Shown in pieces: positions 3,726 through 37,749 of a stretch of 64,000 bases of DNA. The position numbers and the translations under genes are program-made. Below the pieces are notes generated by a model. That model saw only the letters and a list, made by a program, of their open reading frames with translations, ran no database searches and was not told where the DNA came from. Within the stretch, counting starts at the first letter, position 1. Every line of letters begins with the position of its first letter. The DNA comes from Acidobacteriota bacterium (GTDB lineage: Bacteria; Acidobacteriota; Blastocatellia; Chloracidobacteriales; JADJPF01), in assembly GCA_016213785.1 (NCBI GenBank), contig JACQZQ010000121.1, forward strand, positions 62,001 through 126,000. The letters are read 5' to 3'.

Positions 3726-4931
3726 TTACCTAAAAAAGAAAACCCAAAAAGCTAATAAAACTACTAATATAATTGCTACTATTATTCCTATAATAATCAT
3801 GGTTTCAGGGCTTGTTGTAGCAGTTGTTTTGTTATTTACTGATTTATTCTTAGAATTACTTATTAAAGTATTAGGCTTTTCTGAAGTTTTTATAGAAGTA
3901 GAAATTTTTAGAGAATCTGTTTTTGGTTTTATTTTCTGTGAATTTGCTTTTAGGTTTTGATTTGCCTCAATAGTTTTTTCTCTATTTTCTGGTGAATATG
4001 ATTTTCCTTTTTCTGTACTTTCTAGATTTATTTTAGGCTTAGTATCTAGTCTTAATACAGTTTCTTTTATATCTTCTAAGAGTTCTATTGCTGATTGATA
4101 GCGATCTGAAGGTGAACGAGTTAAAGCTTTTTGTAAAATAGGGTCAAAAAGAGGGGAAACAAAAGGATGAGTTCTAGAAATAGGAGCGATATCTTGGCTA
4201 ACTTTAATAATTAAAAGCTGTTGTGCTTTAGAATGCTCTATGGGTAGTTTTCCGCTAAGCATCTGGTAAAGAATTACCCCAACACTATAAACATCTGTTG
4301 TAGGTCTTAGTTTTTGAGCTAAAACCTGCTCAGGGGACATATAATGAGGTGTGCCAAAGATCTCACCTTCTACTGTAAGCATTTGATCTTTTGTTTTACT
4401 TAAATCTGTTCTTTTAGCAATACCAAAATCTGCTAGTTTTATTATTTCTTTTCCATCTGAAGTTTTTGAAACTAAAATATTTTCTGGCTTTAAGTCACGA
4501 TGTAAGACATTGTGTTTATGAGCAAACTCTAAGGCTTGGCAAAGTGGGGTTAGAAGTTCTAAGGAACGTTTTGGAGAAAGAACACCTTCTTTTTCTAAAC
4601 AGTTTTTTAATGTTTCCCCTGGAACAAACTCCATGATTATAAAAAATAGTCTATGTTCTGTTTGTCCAAATTCTTCAACACCAACTATATTAGGATGCTT
4701 AAGTAATTTACCTAGATCGGCTTCTCTTTCAAAACGTTTAATAAATTTCTCATCTGTAACTAAAGCAGGAGAAATAACTTTTATAGCTACAGTTTTGTTA
4801 TTTTCTAAATCAAACGCTTGGAAAACGGCTCCCATTGCACCTACACCAAGTTTTGCATCAAGTCTATAACGATTACTAATAGTTTTTCCTATTAAAACAT
4901 CAAATTGTTCTTTTTGAGCAGGTTGGCCCAT
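3726..4931 (-). CDS. membrane-anchored Ser/Thr protein kinase
   Basis: A Hanks-type kinase of 401 residues. The glycine loop GVGAMGAV, the ATP-binding lysine in VAIKVI (about K51), HRDLKPEN (catalytic Asp about 146), DFGIAK (about 168) and GTPHYMSPEQ are all intact, so it should be active. A low-complexity Lys/Ser/Asn/Thr linker of about 100 residues follows the kinase domain. A single C-terminal membrane helix (about 377-399) ends the protein, leaving the kinase in the cytoplasm with essentially no external sensor. I chose ATG at 4931. A TTG at 4949 extends the frame, but the GGAG just after it is better read as the ribosome site for 4931. The substrate is unknown. Confidence 0.88.
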   Translation of the reverse strand: MGQPAQKEQFDVLIGKTISNRYRLDAKLGVGAMGAVFQAFDLENNKTVAIKVISPALVTDEKFIKRFEREADLGKLLKHPNIVGVEEFGQTEHRLFFIIMEFVPGETLKNCLEKEGVLSPKRSLELLTPLCQALEFAHKHNVLHRDLKPENILVSKTSDGKEIIKLADFGIAKRTDLSKTKDQMLTVEGEIFGTPHYMSPEQVLAQKLRPTTDVYSVGVILYQMLSGKLPIEHSKAQQLLIIKVSQDIAPISRTHPFVSPLFDPILQKALTRSPSDRYQSAIELLEDIKETVLRLDTKPKINLESTEKGKSYSPENREKTIEANQNLKANSQKIKPKTDSLKISTSIKTSEKPNTLISNSKNKSVNNKTTATTSPETMIIIGIIVAIILVVLLAFWVFFFR

Positions 4932-29593: not shown

Positions 29594-29641
29594 TTGCTTT
29601 TGGATTGTTTTTAGATTGCCTTTGGATTGCTTTATGCTATT
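29594..29641. repeat. four degenerate 12-base tandem repeats over the rtcA 3' end
   Basis: Units TTGCTTTTGGAT, TTGTTTTTAGAT, TTGCCTTTGGAT and TTGCTTTATGCT follow head to tail. The last ones overlap the rtcA stop codon region. Confidence 0.6.
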
Positions 29642-30648
29642 TCTATTGTTGTAGATAATTTTCCTAGTTGTTTTGTATTAATATTAACTTTTAGAAATTT
29701 CTTTATAATTTCAATATTAGTAGTAGTATGTAAAGAAAGCCCAAAAGTAGTAAACACACCACTACCAGCTAAGGCAAATGGAATAAGGAGTTGATCGGCT
29801 AAATACTCACCAACTGGAACACCTGCGGCTAAATAATGTCTTGCTTCTTTAACTGCTTCATCTGCAACGGCCTCAGCCCTAACTCCTCGCTCACCAAAAG
29901 CAGTAAATATTTCTGTTAAATTTTCACTCTCAAGCTCAATAAAAACTACATTGCCTGGCCCACGAGAATTATTTATTATCTCTTTGTGTAAACAGGACTT
30001 ATCCCAAGACATTCTTTGAGCAATAAAACTTAATTCTCTATCAGCAATCTCTGTTGGAAGAGAAGCAACTAAAGCTCTTGCCCTACGTGAAATAATTTCT
30101 CCTCTTGAAGTAAGTTCAAATCCTAGAAGCTTTTTTACTGGCTTAATATTTACCTTAAACTGCCCTCCACCAGCAGGATAAAACCCTGGCCTAACTAGCT
30201 CTAAAGTAACATTTACTCCCATACGATTAATTTGTTTAAGAAAAGTTTTTTCTAAAAAATCAAAAGGCGGTGCAGCAGGATTATGTGTCCCTCCTTCTAA
30301 AATTAAGTTTGTTGGCCCATCAGCAAGTAGTAAAGCAGGTAAAATTGTTTGTAAAACCAAAGTCGCACTTCCTGCTGTCCCTATTGCAAATGAATAATCT
30401 CCTGCTAAAACTTTTTTAGGAATAAAAGTAAGTTGTTGAGAATTAAGCGATGCTCCTACTACCTCTGCTTGCCCTATTTTAGCCGCAGCATTAATTGCTG
30501 TTAAATGTTGACGCAAAATTCCAGGGCTTTTACGACCACCACGAATTTTCTCTATACGAAAAGCTGTTCCTGTTACTAACGATAAGCCCAAAGAAGTACG
30601 TAAAATTTGACCTCCGCCTTCACCAAAAGAGCCGTCTATTATTAACAT
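29632..30648 (-). CDS. rtcA: RNA 3'-terminal phosphate cyclase RtcA
   Basis: A 338-residue cyclase that uses ATP to convert an RNA 3'-phosphate into a 2',3'-cyclic phosphate, the substrate form that RtcB can join. The opening DGSFGEGGGQILRTSLGLS and RGGRKSPGILRQH bind the substrate. HNPAAPPFDFLEKTF and the C-terminal SLHTTTN carry the histidine that is adenylylated. Length equals the E. coli enzyme. GAGAGG precedes the ATG. It is the last RNA-repair gene of the operon, separated from rtcB by a membrane glycosyltransferase gene. Confidence 0.93.
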   Translation of the reverse strand: MLIIDGSFGEGGGQILRTSLGLSLVTGTAFRIEKIRGGRKSPGILRQHLTAINAAAKIGQAEVVGASLNSQQLTFIPKKVLAGDYSFAIGTAGSATLVLQTILPALLLADGPTNLILEGGTHNPAAPPFDFLEKTFLKQINRMGVNVTLELVRPGFYPAGGGQFKVNIKPVKKLLGFELTSRGEIISRRARALVASLPTEIADRELSFIAQRMSWDKSCLHKEIINNSRGPGNVVFIELESENLTEIFTAFGERGVRAEAVADEAVKEARHYLAAGVPVGEYLADQLLIPFALAGSGVFTTFGLSLHTTTNIEIIKKFLKVNINTKQLGKLSTTIEIA

Positions 30649-31866: not shown

Positions 31867-33093
31867 TTATCCTTTTACACAAACAATTTGTTTTAGAGTA
31901 TGCACAATATCTACTAGGTCTGATTGAGCAGCCATTACGCTATCAATATCTTTATAAGCACCTGGAGTTTCATCAATTACATCTACATCTTTACGGCATT
32001 CAATTCCACTAGTAGCAGTAATGTGGTCTTCTAGTGTAAATCTACGCTTTGCTTCTGTTCGTGACATTGCGCGGCCTGCACCATGACTACAAGAATGGAA
32101 ACTTTCTGGATTACCTTTTCCCCTCACAATATAGGATCTTGCACCCATACTACCAGGAATAATACCCATATCACCTAATCTAGCTCTAACTGCACCTTTA
32201 CGAGTTATAAACACATTTTCGCCATAATGATTTTCAATAGCAACATAGTTATGATGACAATGGATTGCTTCTTCTCCAAGCTCAAATGGTGGTAGGCTTG
32301 AAACATTTTTTATAGCATTAACTATATTCTCCATCATTAATTTGCGGTTCCACATAGCAAAATCTTGTGCCCAATGAACGGCTTTAACATAATCATCAAA
32401 ATTTTCGCTACCCTCTGGTAAATAAGCAAGGTCTTGATCTGGCAAATTAATAAACCATCTTTTCATATCAGCTTTAGCTAAATCAATAAAATAACTACCA
32501 ATTCTATTTCCTACACCACGAGAACCGCTGTGGAGCATAAACCATACTTGATCATTTTCATCTAAACAAACTTCAATAAAATGATTACCTGTCCCTAAAG
32601 TTCCTAAATGGTTTAAGTGATTGCCCCTATCAAGTTTAGGATGTTTAGTAATAATTTCATCATAACCAATTTTTATTTTTCCCCAAACTTCCAAGTGAGT
32701 TTTAGGAGGATTAGCCCAAGCACCACGATCATTTCTACCTCCATTATCAGTACGACCATGAGGCACAGCCTTTTCAATTGCAGCACGAATTTCAGCTAAA
32801 CTATCTGGTAAATCAGTTGCCTTAAGCGTAGTAGCTATAGCACTCATACCACATCCAATATCTACACCTACAGCAGAAGGTATTATGGCTTTTTTCGTAG
32901 GAATAACACTACCTACAGTTGCTCCTAAACCAGAATGAACATCAGGCATTGCAGCTATCCATTTATAAATAAAAGGCATAGTTGCAGCATTTAATAATTG
33001 TTTTTTAGCCTCATCTTCCATTGCTACACCATCAATCCAAGCTTTTACTGGTAATCCTTTATCATCTTTTAGTACTTGATATTTTTTTTCCAT
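31867..33093 (-). CDS. rtcB: RNA-splicing ligase RtcB
   Basis: A 408-residue GTP- and Mn-dependent ligase that joins RNA 2',3'-cyclic phosphate or 3'-phosphate ends to 5'-hydroxyls. Metal ligands are visible in VGVDIGCGM (Asp78, Cys81), GTGNHFIE, MLHSGSRGVGN and HCHHNYV. The histidine that becomes guanylylated lies in HSCSHGAGRAMSR. Size and motifs match the E. coli enzyme. TAAGGAG lies 8 bases before the ATG. It follows the Y RNA cluster in the same transcription direction. No archease gene is present in the window. Confidence 0.95.
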   Translation of the reverse strand: MEKKYQVLKDDKGLPVKAWIDGVAMEDEAKKQLLNAATMPFIYKWIAAMPDVHSGLGATVGSVIPTKKAIIPSAVGVDIGCGMSAIATTLKATDLPDSLAEIRAAIEKAVPHGRTDNGGRNDRGAWANPPKTHLEVWGKIKIGYDEIITKHPKLDRGNHLNHLGTLGTGNHFIEVCLDENDQVWFMLHSGSRGVGNRIGSYFIDLAKADMKRWFINLPDQDLAYLPEGSENFDDYVKAVHWAQDFAMWNRKLMMENIVNAIKNVSSLPPFELGEEAIHCHHNYVAIENHYGENVFITRKGAVRARLGDMGIIPGSMGARSYIVRGKGNPESFHSCSHGAGRAMSRTEAKRRFTLEDHITATSGIECRKDVDVIDETPGAYKDIDSVMAAQSDLVDIVHTLKQIVCVKG

Positions 33094-33363: not shown

Positions 33364-33567
33364 TATGGCGACAAGGATTTAGAGAAACAGCGTCCTTACC
33401 AAATTACTTTGGCAGTGGACACGCATTTAGAATCTTTAAGTCAAAGACCAAAAGACCCCAAAGAACCTTTTTATCAGTTCTTGTAATGCTTCGCTAACTG
33501 GATCACTCCAGGTTTGCTACCTTAGGCTCGTTATAGTTACGTGTAGTTCCTCAGAGCATTCGCCATA
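33364..33567 (-). ncRNA. Y RNA-like element 2 carrying a 23S rRNA helix 69-71 mimic
   Basis: 204 bases. The terminal stem TATGGCGA/TCGCCATA is perfect. The bulge boxes ATGC and TTGTC, stem 2 (GAGGAAC/GTTTCTC) and the TACA box match the other copies. Directly after that box comes a segment (33513-33540) equal to the conserved 23S rRNA sequence around E. coli 1909-1937 at 25 of 28 positions: GTAACTATAACG, then CCTAAGGTAGC, then AA. Next are the hairpins CTGGA-GTGA-TCCAG and CCAAA-GTAA-TTTGG, both with GNRA loops, and AAGAAC/GTTCTT. The rRNA sequence is compared from memory. Confidence 0.8.
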
Positions 33568-33584
33568 ATTTAGTTTTTTTATTG

Positions 33585-33713
33585 GTAACGACAAAGGGCA
33601 AAGAAACATTTTTTCGCCGCTCTACCACTGAGCTACGACCCCACAAACGGGGCCGGTAGGGATCGAACCTACGACAAACGACTTAACATGTAGTTCCTTT
33701 AAGCATTCGTTAC
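33585..33713 (-). ncRNA. Y RNA-like element 3 (YrlA type) with a circularly permuted tRNA mimic
   Basis: 129 bases, terminal stem GTAACGA/TCGTTAC, stem 2 AAGGAAC/GTTTCTT, box TACATG. The insert runs in the order T arm, acceptor stem, D arm. The T arm is GTAGG-TTCGATC-CCTAC (33656-33672). The acceptor stem CGGCCCC/GGGGTCG is 7 bp and closed by a GTTTGT loop. The D arm is GCTC-AGTGGTA-GAGC (33619-33633). The Ro-binding stem takes the place of the anticodon arm. This is the published YrlA architecture. Confidence 0.88.
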
Positions 33714-33739: not shown

Positions 33740-33886
33740 ATTGTGGCGACAAGAGTTTGAGAAACGTTTTTTCGTCGTTCTACCATTAAACTATAGCCCC
33801 CATAAGTTATTGGTGGAGACTAGCAGGAATCGAACCCGCATCTACGGCGTTGCAAGCATGTAGTTCCTCAAGGCATTCGCCACAAT
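33740..33886 (-). ncRNA. Y RNA-like element 4 (YrlA type), permuted tRNA mimic with internal ACCA
   Basis: 147 bases with a perfect 10-bp terminal stem ATTGTGGCGA/TCGCCACAAT, stem 2 GAGGAAC/GTTTCTC and box TACATG. The insert order is T arm GCGGG-TTCGATT-CCTGC (33823-33839), then an 8-bp acceptor stem TAGTCTCC/GGGGGCTA, then D arm GTTT-AATGGTA-GAAC (33777-33791). The 13-base loop closing the acceptor stem starts ACCA, exactly where a mature tRNA carries N73-CCA. This looks like a former tRNA whose ends were joined and which was reopened at the anticodon. Confidence 0.88.
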
Positions 33887-33922
33887 ATAAACTATTAAAG
33901 AACTTGGCTTTAACCTGAATAA

Positions 33923-33986
33923 AAGCTGACAAGAAATGATTAAGACTCTTTACATTGGCGATGTAGTCCTAATCAGCATTCAGCTT
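33923..33986 (-). ncRNA. Y RNA-like element 5, minimal form
   Basis: 64 bases. Terminal stem AAGCTGA/TCAGCTT, bulge boxes ATGCT and TTTCTTGTC, then a 10-bp second stem GATTAGGACT/AGTCTTAATC with one wobble, capped by ACAT-CGCCA-ATGT. It has no inserted module, so it consists of the Ro-binding part alone. Confidence 0.82.
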
Positions 33987-34047
33987 AAATATAATTCAAT
34001 AAACTACAGATTTATAAAAACTAATAAACTAATTTAATATTTAGGCT

Positions 34048-34109
34048 TAGGCTGACAAGAAATCGCTAAGACACAAGTTTCATATGTAGTCCTAACTGCA
34101 TTCAGCCTA
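34048..34109 (-). ncRNA. Y RNA-like element 6, minimal form
   Basis: 62 bases. Terminal stem TAGGCTGA/TCAGCCTA, boxes ATGC and TTTCTTGTC, second stem GTTAGGAC/GTCTTAGC and a TACATATGAAACTT loop. It is closely related to element 5 in the bulge and box sequences, but the stems differ by paired changes, which supports selection on structure. Confidence 0.82.
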
Positions 34110-34140: not shown

Positions 34141-34213
34141 GGTAACGACAAGTGGGTGAGAAACGCCATGTCATTTCTGACTACCATATGTAGTTCCTCT
34201 AACATTCGTTACC
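34141..34213 (-). ncRNA. Y RNA-like element 7, short form with a GAAA hairpin
   Basis: 73 bases, the first Y-like RNA after rsr. Terminal stem GGTAACGA/TCGTTACC, bulge boxes ATG and TTGTC, second stem GAGGAAC/GTTTCTC, box TACATA, and an extra small hairpin GTCA-GAAA-TGAC with a GNRA loop. Its stem 2 sequence matches elements 2 and 4. Confidence 0.83.
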
Positions 34214-34305: not shown

Positions 34306-35862
34306 CTATATTTCCACCGCTTCGATCACTTTAACCCAATGTTCACCTTGGTTTTGACCATTAGCAAACAAACTTATTACATCAAAAACTTGGTCAGAGA
34401 ATCCACCAATATTCAAAATATCTTGTCTATCTGGTGCTTGAGTAGTTCCATAAGGTTGTATATCGATACAGACTAGTTTTGCATTAGGGTTATTTTGCTT
34501 GAACTTTTGCCACTCTTGCATTGTTGCACTACCACGTCCAGCTTTAGCATCTACCCAAGACTCATTATCTGACACAAAAATCACTAAATCCCCTTTTGCT
34601 CTATTTTTATTTAACATTGCTAAAGGAGCACTACAGTTAGTTCCACCTCCTCCGATAGAGGCAAGTTTACTAGCATTAGTCATTACACTATCACGAGAAT
34701 TAAGTTTTAAGTTTGTTACCACATTACACTCAAAAGGTAGTACTTCAGCATCAGGGTTTTTACGAATTACAGCAGCAGTTACTAAAGCAGCAACATCAAT
34801 ACAACGAACTTTACTAGTAGAACCTTGACGATAACCTGTTACAGGTGAAGACATAGAACCAGAAACATCTGGGCAAATATAGATTTTTCCATCAAATTTA
34901 GGGACATTGGTAATAGCTATTTCCATAGCATCTTGTAGAGCTTCGGTAACAATTTTAGGAACATCACTATTTGTCATTAAATAAGCGCTCATTAGCTGAT
35001 AAGGAAAAGCTTTAGCCTTAGTAATTAATTCAGGATTACGCAATCTATCAGCAATAATTTTATCCATTCCTAAAGACTTAAACACATCATGACGAGCAAA
35101 AGTATTTAAGTTCATTCTAGTCATTTGCCAAGATCCATTACGGGCAATCTCCACCCAATTTTTAGAACTTAGATTTAACATTGTCAACATTTCAAAAGGA
35201 ACTTTAGGCATTTCTTCACTTTTACCAGCCTTAAATGCTTCATATTGTTGAACTAACCCTGGTAATTTAGTTTCATCATATTGACGACCAATCATATAAC
35301 CAAAAAAAGCTTCACGTTCTTTATCTTTTGGCTTAGGGTGAACCATCTTGATAATATCAGCAAAAGAAGGGGTTTGACCTATAGAAGCACGAAATATATT
35401 TTCCTCATTACGGTTTTCAAACCACTCACGAACTAAGCGTTTTGGTAAAGATCCTAGGGATTTACGACCTACAACACCAGATCTAATAATTTGTACAAAA
35501 TTACGTAACATTTTACCATTATCAATTACTCTAGAAAAAACTTTAACTAATAAATCACGGTTTTTTATAGATAAAATTGCACAAAGTAATGCTGGCATAT
35601 CTTTCATAAAACCACGTTCACGTGAATAAAGTGCAAGTTTAGCAATAAATTCTGGCTCGATATTTTGAGACATTTCTAAAATTTTTTCTAATTGGTTTTC
35701 AGCACTTGCATAAAAAGTAGCGTTAAAACAACCTGTCATTGCATATTGAGCTAAAACGTGTTTAGGAGTAAAACTATAAGCGTTTCCGCCTGCTTCATTA
35801 AAAGTATCTGTTTTAGGGATAAAGTTTCCAATAATTGATTGAAATAAACTCTTGTTAGCCAT
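34306..35862 (-). CDS. rsr: Ro60 ortholog, TROVE-domain RNA-binding protein
   Basis: A 518-residue Ro ring protein that binds Y RNAs on its outer surface and threads 3' ends of damaged RNAs through the ring. The N-terminal TROVE/HEAT repeats span about 20-320 (FTPKHVLAQYAMTGCFNATFY). The C-terminal von Willebrand A domain has a complete MIDAS: DVSGS (332-336), the Thr in GGGGTNCSAPL, and SDNES. ATG 35862 is chosen with GGAGG 5 bases upstream; a TTG at 35880 includes the ribosome site and is rejected. It is the first gene behind the sigma-54 promoter. Confidence 0.95.
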   Translation of the reverse strand: MANKSLFQSIIGNFIPKTDTFNEAGGNAYSFTPKHVLAQYAMTGCFNATFYASAENQLEKILEMSQNIEPEFIAKLALYSRERGFMKDMPALLCAILSIKNRDLLVKVFSRVIDNGKMLRNFVQIIRSGVVGRKSLGSLPKRLVREWFENRNEENIFRASIGQTPSFADIIKMVHPKPKDKEREAFFGYMIGRQYDETKLPGLVQQYEAFKAGKSEEMPKVPFEMLTMLNLSSKNWVEIARNGSWQMTRMNLNTFARHDVFKSLGMDKIIADRLRNPELITKAKAFPYQLMSAYLMTNSDVPKIVTEALQDAMEIAITNVPKFDGKIYICPDVSGSMSSPVTGYRQGSTSKVRCIDVAALVTAAVIRKNPDAEVLPFECNVVTNLKLNSRDSVMTNASKLASIGGGGTNCSAPLAMLNKNRAKGDLVIFVSDNESWVDAKAGRGSATMQEWQKFKQNNPNAKLVCIDIQPYGTTQAPDRQDILNIGGFSDQVFDVISLFANGQNQGEHWVKVIEAVEI

Positions 35863-35974
35863 AAATCCTCCTGCAGACAATTATTCCGCTTGTTTGAAAA
35901 ACCAAATAATGTTAAATAAACTTATATATCAGATTAGATTATTTGCTAAAATTTCTTGTTGTACTTATACATAT

Positions 35975-35990
35975 ATCAAACAACGTGCCA
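35975..35990 (-). promoter_or_regulatory. sigma-54 promoter of the rsr-Y RNA-rtcBA operon
   Basis: Read leftward, TGGCAC (-24) and TTGAT (-12) are separated by 5 bases. The consensus is TGGCAC-N5-TTGCW, so only one base of the -12 element differs. The start of transcription would fall near 35963, about 100 bases before rsr. The divergent neighbour rtcR encodes a sigma-54 activator, as expected. Confidence 0.85.
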
Positions 35991-36135: not shown

Positions 36136-37749
36136 ATGACTAATAAAAAATATGTAGTAATAGGATTAGTTGGAACAACGCTAGACAATGGTGCTGGCCC
36201 TGAACGTTGGGAAAAATGGAGACCAACCGTATCACTTTGTAGACATGAAAACTTGATTGTTCATAGACTAGAGTTACTTTATCAAAAAAAATTTAGTTCT
36301 ATAGTAGATGTCTTAGTAGAAGATATTTCAACCGTTTCTCCAGAAACTCACTTAAGGCCAATTCAAATGGAATTTAATGATCCCTGGGATTTTGAAGAGG
36401 TTTATGCCACACTACATGAATTTGCAGGTAACTATGAGTTTAACCCTGAAGAAGAAGAATACCTAGTGCATATTACAACAGGTACACACGTAGTACAGAT
36501 TTGTATGTTTTTATTAACAGAATCTAGGCATTTTCCAGCTAAACTCCTGCAAACTTCACCCCCAAATCGTCATAAGTCAGAGCCAGGAAAATATACAATA
36601 ATTGATTTAGATCTTTCCAAGTATGATGAAATTGCATCACGTTTCCAACAAGAGAAGCGAGAAGGCGTATCATTCTTAAAGTCGGGTATTGAAACTCGTA
36701 ATAAAGAATTTAATAGGCAAATTGAGCGGATTGAACAAGTTGCAATAGCTTCAGAGTCACCTATTTTGCTTATGGGGCCAACTGGTGCAGGTAAATCACA
36801 ACTAGCTAGGCGAATTTATGAATTAAAAAAAGCCCGCCACCGCGTTGTAGGTAAATTTGTAGAAGTTAATTGTGCAACTCTTAGGGGTGATTCTGCAATG
36901 TCAGCACTTTTTGGACATATAAAAGGAGCCTATACTGGTGCAAATAATAGCCGACCTGGGCTACTTCGTACTGCTGATAAGGGTTTACTCTTTTTAGATG
37001 AAATAGGCGAATTAGGTCTAGATGAGCAAGCAATGCTACTTAGGGCTTTAGAAGAGAAAGTTTTTCTACCTCTTGGCTCAGATCAAGAAGTAAGCAGCGA
37101 TTTCCAGTTAATTGCTGGTACTAACCGTGAATTAAATAGTTTTGTAACAGAAGGGAAATTTCGTGAGGATTTACTAGCAAGAATTAATTTATGGACATTT
37201 CGCCTTCCTAGTCTTAAAGAGCGGGTAGAAGATATTGAGCCTAACCTTCACTATGAATTAGAAGCCTATACTCGCCGCACTGGTAATAGAGTAACTGTTA
37301 GTAAAGAAGCTAAAGAATTTTTCTTAAAGTTCGCTACTTCATCAAATGCAAAATGGAGTGGCAATTTTCGTGACCTAAATGCGGCTGTAACCCGTATGAC
37401 AACCTTAGCTTTAGGAGGTCGTATTTCTTTAGAAATTGTAGAGGAAGAAATTGAGCGGCTAAAAGCTACTTGGTATAACCCAAATCAACCTAGCAAAGAA
37501 GAGATGCTTTTAGAATCTTTACTAGGTAAAGAGCAAGCAAATCAAATAGATCGTTTTGATAGAATACAACTCCTAGATGTATTATCTGTATGCAGTCAGG
37601 CTCATACCCTTTCCGAAGCAGGTCGAGAGCTTTTTGCTAGCTCAAGAGAGCAAAAAAAAAATATTAATGATGCTGATAGGCTTAGAAAATATTTAGCTAG
37701 ATTTAACCTACAATGGCAAGATATTAAAAATATTTCTGAAGATATTTAA
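36136..37749 (+). CDS. rtcR: sigma-54-dependent activator RtcR
   Basis: A 537-residue regulator. The N-terminal RtcR-type CARF domain (about 5-180) opens VVIGLVGTTLDNG and has HITTGTHV (112-119), the expected ligand-pocket loop. The AAA+ domain has Walker A GPTGAGKS (214-221), GAYTGA (264-269, the sigma-54 contact loop, a GAFTGA variant) and Walker B LLFLDEIGE. The C-terminus carries a divergent DNA-binding helix-turn-helix (about 470-535). In Salmonella, RtcR is activated by tRNA fragments ending in 2',3'-cyclic phosphate. It is divergent from the operon it should control. Confidence 0.95.
   Translation: MTNKKYVVIGLVGTTLDNGAGPERWEKWRPTVSLCRHENLIVHRLELLYQKKFSSIVDVLVEDISTVSPETHLRPIQMEFNDPWDFEEVYATLHEFAGNYEFNPEEEEYLVHITTGTHVVQICMFLLTESRHFPAKLLQTSPPNRHKSEPGKYTIIDLDLSKYDEIASRFQQEKREGVSFLKSGIETRNKEFNRQIERIEQVAIASESPILLMGPTGAGKSQLARRIYELKKARHRVVGKFVEVNCATLRGDSAMSALFGHIKGAYTGANNSRPGLLRTADKGLLFLDEIGELGLDEQAMLLRALEEKVFLPLGSDQEVSSDFQLIAGTNRELNSFVTEGKFREDLLARINLWTFRLPSLKERVEDIEPNLHYELEAYTRRTGNRVTVSKEAKEFFLKFATSSNAKWSGNFRDLNAAVTRMTTLALGGRISLEIVEEEIERLKATWYNPNQPSKEEMLLESLLGKEQANQIDRFDRIQLLDVLSVCSQAHTLSEAGRELFASSREQKKNINDADRLRKYLARFNLQWQDIKNISEDI

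Follow-up and report, generated by a model that had tools for sequence, protein, structure and literature searches.

Permuted tRNA genes are known from algae and archaea, and permuted tmRNA carries a tag-encoding region and a reduced D arm. Among bacterial Y RNAs, the YrlA type is reportedly tRNA-like and permuted, a description for which Chen 2014 and Wang 2018 are said to be the sources. The published passages considered here present YrlA as circularly permuted relative to tRNA (PMC8394870, PMC11472068) and describe an arrangement of Ro60, Y RNA, and RtcBA genes (PMC7790460, PMC8394870). According to those of PMC8394870, Salmonella YrlA binds Ro60, its D and T loops are modified by DusA and TruB, and PNPase is a partner of the head. 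YrlA is thus treated as tRNA-like in these passages, which are silent on the origin of its head.

The window (the whole stretch of 64,000 nucleotides that was analyzed) contains an arrangement of this kind, composed of the following features.

29632-30648, minus strand: RtcA RNA 3'-phosphate cyclase (Pfam RTC, E 2.2e-75)
31867-33093, minus strand: RtcB RNA ligase (Pfam RtcB, E 1.2e-129)
33366-33572, minus strand: element 2, a long Y RNA with a head (33513-33543) resembling helix 69 of 23S rRNA
33582-33713, minus strand: element 3, the second YrlA Y RNA, with a 7-bp acceptor stem and the loop GUUUGU (Rfam RF02553, E 7.2e-12)
33740-33886, minus strand: element 4, a YrlA-type Y RNA (Rfam RF02553 match and fold z of -3.12)
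33918-33991, minus strand: YrlB-like Y RNA (Rfam RF02565, E 3.7e-4, gathering score not reached)
34049-34108, minus strand: short Y RNA (Y core and 3' partner)
34141-34213, minus strand: short Y RNA (Y core and 3' partner)
34306-35880, minus strand: Ro60/Rsr protein (Pfam vWA_Ro60, E 2.7e-19; TROVE, E 9.3e-7)
35975-35990, minus strand: TGGCACGTTGTTTGAT, upstream of Ro60, which we take to be a sigma-54-like -24/-12 site (picked out by eye; one mismatch to the consensus)
36136-37749, plus strand: RtcR sigma-54 activator (Pfam RtcR, E 5.6e-84; Sigma54_activat, E 6.4e-49)

RtcB and RtcA lie downstream of the Y RNA array on the same strand, Ro60 lies upstream, and RtcR is divergent. Element 4 adjoins the Ro60 (rsr) gene, and Y RNA arrays are also found next to Ro60 in related genomes. 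The Ro60 frame starts at TTG as listed, and a Shine-Dalgarno-like stretch followed by ATG occurs at 35860-35871. We conclude that element 4 is probably a YrlA-type bacterial Y RNA in an RtcR-controlled Ro60-Y RNA-RtcB-RtcA operon, that its head most likely came from a gene of the tRNA-Ala kind in which CCA was encoded, and that this CCA is probably now decaying.

The assignment to YrlA is based on a full-length alignment of RF02553 with element 4 (33740-33883; 50.8 bits; E 3.9e-10 in a 1.4-kb search and 4.2e-10 in a whole-genome search). The score is below the gathering score of 69, which is a curated search cut-off and not a biological feature; in the phylum sample, only 3 of 396 genomes reached it. 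Element 4 has the conserved Ro60-binding stem (GAAUG..ACUACA / ..CUUGUC) and a tRNA-like head with T, acceptor, and D arms, and ARAGORN called no tRNA in it. Read along the minus strand, its parts are as follows.

33858-33886, minus strand: 5' strand of the Y stem, with the conserved core GAAUGC..GGAACUACAU (from sequence; the core is common to other array elements)
33840-33857, minus strand: putative remnant of the anticodon loop and 3' anticodon strand (precedes the T arm, as in other YrlA modules)
33823-33839, minus strand: T arm, GCGGG-UUCGAUU-CCUGC (from Rfam alignment, fold, and sequence)
33815-33822, minus strand: 3' strand of the acceptor stem, TAGTCTCC (= UAGUCUCC; from fold and sequence)
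33802-33814, minus strand: 13-base loop joining the acceptor ends, ACCAATAACTTAT (= ACCAAUAACUUAU; from fold and sequence)
33811-33814, minus strand: ACCA at the place of N73-CCA (from sequence; CCA is in excess at the same place in relatives)
33794-33801, minus strand: 5' strand of the acceptor stem, GGGGGCTA (= GGGGGCUA; from fold and sequence)
33792-33793, minus strand: U8-A9 (from sequence)
33777-33791, minus strand: D arm, GUUUAAUGGUAGAAC (from Rfam alignment and sequence)
33740-33765, minus strand: 3' strand of the Y stem, GUUUCUC..CUUGUCGCC (from sequence; pairs with the 5' strand)

This reading confirms the T arm, 8-bp acceptor stem, D arm, and 13-base loop beginning with ACCA that a preliminary description had assigned to element 4, as well as the 7-bp acceptor of element 3, where there is no CCA. 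Two of the eight acceptor pairs in element 4 are G.U. The same description had called the module a permuted tRNA mimic, a view that we can support; that YrlA mimics a circularly permuted tRNA is already in the literature, and what is new here is a position test of ACCA across YrlA loops. The minimum-energy fold of element 4 (z -3.12; 3 of 200 shuffles were as good) gives the Y stem, the T arm, and the acceptor, together with a different D arm; the D arm reported above is that of the Rfam alignment. In this fold, the first A and the last U of the loop also pair, extending the acceptor to 9 pairs and leaving a closed 11-base loop that starts with CCA.

Ro60 neighborhoods for the position test were drawn from a phylum sample (19 of 396 genomes with Ro60), a class sample (39 of 162), 80 of the 348 related stretches in named genomes, and 69 loci in viral contigs. 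The named relatives are mostly Acidobacteriota, so the window probably comes from a member of that phylum. A first scan gave 107 distinct modules, and a stricter one yielded 210 Y RNAs: 60 short, 83 YrlA, 3 D-loop-opened, and 64 long but unparsed. Our counts cover the 83 parsed long Y RNAs, with the 64 unparsed ones, many of them visibly tRNA-like, left out; two AT-rich false matches were removed from the list of loop starts, and three D-loop-opened modules were removed from an earlier CCA count. CCA occupied positions 74-76, right after N73, in 11 of the 80 YrlA loops of at least 5 bases, compared with 1.59 in shuffled loops, and none of 5000 shuffles reached this number. The counts at loop offsets 0 to 5 were 0, 11, 5, 1, 3, and 1, respectively; all five modules with CCA at offset 2, among them element 4, have it after an 8-bp stem. 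When one module was kept per cluster, CCA was found at positions 74-76 in 10 of 65 modules at 85% identity, 5 of 37 at 75%, and 5 of 18 at 70%, and such values arose in 0, 1, and 0 of 2000 shuffles. The acceptor pairs of the YrlA modules are of many types, which is no independent proof of covariation, since the rows were chosen for pairing.

Position-dependent enrichment of this kind speaks against plain coincidence. An ordinary YrlA loop with a chance four-letter match to N73-CCA would be in keeping with the lack of conservation of ACCA and with the many other loop starts that the YrlA modules display. It would not be expected to belong to a family of 80 loops with an excess of CCA at exactly the same place, an excess that persists after clustering; because the excess is family-wide, we consider a chance match unlikely.

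The sequences of close relatives indicate what has become of the motif. In four Verrucomicrobia-type relatives, the stem, G3.U70, and A73 are common to the first YrlA, where the loops read ACCAGAT (L140), AGCAGAT (L143), AACAGAT (L147), and AACACAT (L150). In a second array of the window's own genome, permuted heads keep the acceptor pairing around the loops GTTTTAACCTTAT, TTTTTAACTTAT, and ATTAATTTAT; these paralogues of element 4 read TTTT in place of ACCA, with their stems intact. The ends of their loops resemble ACCAATAACTTAT of element 4, as does the loop ACCAACCAATCTTAT of its nearest module (L197:6973). The preliminary description had proposed that homologs with the stem but not the ACCA would make the motif coincidental. 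Such homologs exist among both relatives and paralogues and indicate that ACCA is not a maintained feature; given the CCA enrichment, they do not reduce it to plain coincidence. The ACCA of element 4 looks like a decaying relic and not a working CCA end, and a decaying relic fits both the CCA excess and the ACCA loss.

A working end would be regained if the loop were opened in the cell as in permuted tmRNA, giving a two-piece Y RNA whose ACCA end, free and of the Ala type, could be charged by AlaRS. The analogy draws on the order of the parts, which is that of permuted tmRNA, on a weak match to RF04321 (20.8 bits, E 0.082), and on the joint presence in element 4 of G3.U70, A73, and CCA, which are AlaRS signals. 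However, close relatives lose the CCA yet keep A73 and the stem, and tight 4-base loops close many YrlA acceptors, which makes loop opening very unlikely in our estimation. We therefore retain the reading of ACCA as a decaying relic.

When numbered from the loop end, the acceptor of element 4 has G1-C72, G2-C71, and G3.U70, which together with A73 are marks of tRNA-Ala. In the 7-bp register, G3.U70 occurs in 19 of the 83 YrlA modules; A73 is present in 16 of these 19 and in 20 of the 64 modules without G3.U70, a link that becomes weaker after clustering (p 5e-4, 0.09, and 0.07). A pattern search for tRNA-Ala, the sole isotype sought in relatives, yielded 22 genes, which belong to 13 of 15 related genomes (the window's own genome included). 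The acceptor GGGGCTA/TAGCTCC and A73 are present in two of these genes, one from G054 (same order) and one from G509 (same class); the acceptor of element 4 less one G.U pair is identical to theirs. Random 8-bp helices equaled this match in 13 of 5000 trials, or in 29 of 5000 with A73 fixed; most of the 22 Ala genes are at an acceptor distance of 2-4 from element 4. CCA directly follows 14 of the 22, including the G054 match and excluding the G509 match. In the window's own genome, the nearest acceptor among 83 parsed tRNAs is that of Ala(cgc), at a distance of 2, which random helices reached in 513 of 3000 trials. This tRNA-Ala(cgc) has no encoded CCA, which is found in only 2 of the 83 parsed ARAGORN tRNAs, one of them inside a Y-like RNA.

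Outside the acceptor, the head of element 4 resembles tRNA-Ala no more than tRNAs of unlike isotype resemble one another, and its best scores in the own genome are 25 and 23 versus a mean of 29. Over both arms, no own-genome tRNA is close to element 4, so the capture, if real, is old. A BLAST search with the 85-base module, in which a phage tRNA source was sought, found nothing that covered 80% of it; the partial matches ranked highest were weak and comprised several tRNA-Cys, some tRNA-Thr, and many unannotated sequences, so that no source was assigned. The search for the closest tRNA in the genome, suggested in the preliminary description, was uninformative for the two arms. The origin which that description proposed, from a real tRNA gene with an encoded CCA, gains from the family-level CCA excess and the tRNA-Ala-like acceptor and loses from the finding that ACCA is not maintained. 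Taking these comparisons together, the most likely ancestor of the element 4 head is a gene resembling tRNA-Ala in which the CCA was encoded.

The 8-bp stem had also been said to recall tRNA-His or tRNA-Sec, a link that we do not uphold. The 8-bp acceptor of tRNA-His has G-1 paired with C73, whereas in element 4 the discriminator is A, not C, and there is no G-1:C73 pair. In tRNA-Sec, an 8-bp acceptor goes with a long D stem and a long variable arm; element 4 has a D stem of 4 pairs and no long variable arm. Both origins were rejected, and the eighth pair is accounted for by one insertion: the stem would have 8 bp because one G.U pair was inserted in a tRNA-Ala acceptor. Descent from tmRNA, with which element 4 has an Ala-type acceptor and a T arm in common, was rejected for its poorer acceptor fit. 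The own tmRNA acceptor, GGGGGTG/CACCTCC with no encoded CCA, matches less well than that of the G054 tRNA-Ala, and the D arm of element 4 is a regular tRNA D arm; a tmRNA source appears highly improbable.

A head with this order of parts need not have come from a single gene. It could be a slice across two neighboring tRNA genes, taking the T arm and acceptor of one and the D arm of the next. The T-acceptor-spacer-D order is expected from a slice and from end joining alike, and in the own genome a dense tRNA cluster adjoins the second Y-RNA-like array. On the other hand, the acceptor strands pair, which would require the two donor tRNAs to be alike, and D-loop-opened heads occur, suggesting that a joined tRNA has been opened in more than one way. 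We regard the slice as quite possible, if somewhat short of probable, and continue with a tRNA-Ala-like gene whose acceptor ends may have become joined.

The second array lies on contig C2 of the own genome (L034:6701-12690), where a dense cluster of ~38 tRNA genes is followed by an HNH gene and then by Y-like RNAs with permuted and unpermuted tRNA bodies; this locus also has a diverged Ro60-like gene (no Pfam match), followed by VWA and ThiF genes. Three Y-like RNAs of this array were folded: two had z < -4, and L034:12583-12729 folded no better than its shuffles.

Heads of other kinds were seen elsewhere. D-loop-opened heads (L107:1200 on the minus strand, L108:1710, L109:1618, L111:2227, L163:6654, and L204:7128) keep the anticodon arm and have an acceptor closed by a tight loop, often of the GAAA type. 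One YrlA-like head (L106:4309) has a long variable arm like that of Leu and other class II tRNAs. A head without T and D arms recurs with similar stems in several genomes (L091:1177 on the minus strand, L153:4807, L161:4847, L181:4827, and L183:4863).

Pieces resembling rRNA were also found. In element 2 (33366-33572), 31 bases right after the Ro60-binding core (33513-33543, minus strand) have 90% identity to 23S rRNA 1888-1918 (E. coli gene), a segment that we take to be helix 69. A deltaproteobacterial Ro60 locus (L215) has a 57-base, 81% match to 23S 1039-1095 at 3997-4053 and, directly after a Y core at 4189-4215, 27 bases identical to 23S 1888-1914, which are annotated as 23S rRNA in E. 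coli. When 392 genomes of the phylum sample were searched with a pattern for the helix-69 Y RNA, the window's own genome was the sole match; viral contigs gave none.

One tentative and rather unlikely reading sees Ro60-RtcB arrays as collections of fragments captured from the translation machinery. A constant Ro60-binding stem would carry joined tRNAs, whole tRNAs, or 23S centers (helix 69 and the GTPase-associated region). Each copy would be a bait or decoy aimed at the enzymes that cut RNA and so cause the damage repaired by RtcB, and element 4 would be the tRNA-Ala copy. It would be part of the same doubtful scheme that the joined tRNAs were opened in the anticodon loop or the D loop and joined at their acceptor ends.

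For element 4 itself, we envisage the following mechanism as probable. Ro60 would bind the stem at its base (GAAUG..ACUACAU with ..CUUGUC), and the T-acceptor-D head, a tRNA presumably opened in the anticodon region and joined at the acceptor end, would recruit a tRNA-binding partner, which in published cases is PNPase or tRNA-modifying enzymes. The Y RNA would thereby tether or gate Ro60 during RNA damage. ACCA, A73, and G3.U70 would be traces of a tRNA-Ala-like origin. Inside the closed loop the CCA should not be charged, and it may now be merely a part of that loop, lacking a present function and free to decay.

A limited search of the literature brought up no description of such a CCA relic in a Y RNA, and we do not claim that none is in print. 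The CCA excess at the exact tRNA place and the Ala-like acceptor make descent from real tRNA genes testable and give it a direction, in which the tRNA precedes the Y RNA and the end then decays. If the arrays also hold functional centers of rRNA, the molecules that the Y RNAs imitate could reveal what Ro60 and RtcB do in RNA damage.

Among known systems, element 4 has in common with YrlA Y RNA (RF02553; Salmonella YrlA, PDB 6CU1) the Ro60-binding core, the T-acceptor-D head, the circular permutation relative to tRNA, and the Ro60-RtcBA locus; it differs in scoring below the Rfam cut-off, in its 8- to 9-bp acceptor and 13-base ACCA loop, and in belonging to an array of about seven Y RNAs. With permuted (two-piece) tmRNA (RF04321), it shares an Ala-type acceptor and the order of T arm, acceptor 3' strand, CCA, spacer, and acceptor 5' strand. 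Unlike that RNA, it measures 147 bases, has a regular D arm, lies inside a Y stem, shows no tag frame and no sign of spacer removal, and scores 20.8 bits against a cut-off of 47. As in the permuted tRNA genes of algae and archaea, the 3' half precedes the 5' half and a spacer joins the acceptor ends, but there is no closed anticodon arm, so element 4 is not a decoding tRNA. Compared to the tRNA-Ala(GGC) of G054 and G509, it has a permuted order, other letters in the D and T stems, and no anticodon arm, while its acceptor is equal to theirs minus one G.U pair and is followed by the same A73 and by the CCA that stands after the G054 copy.
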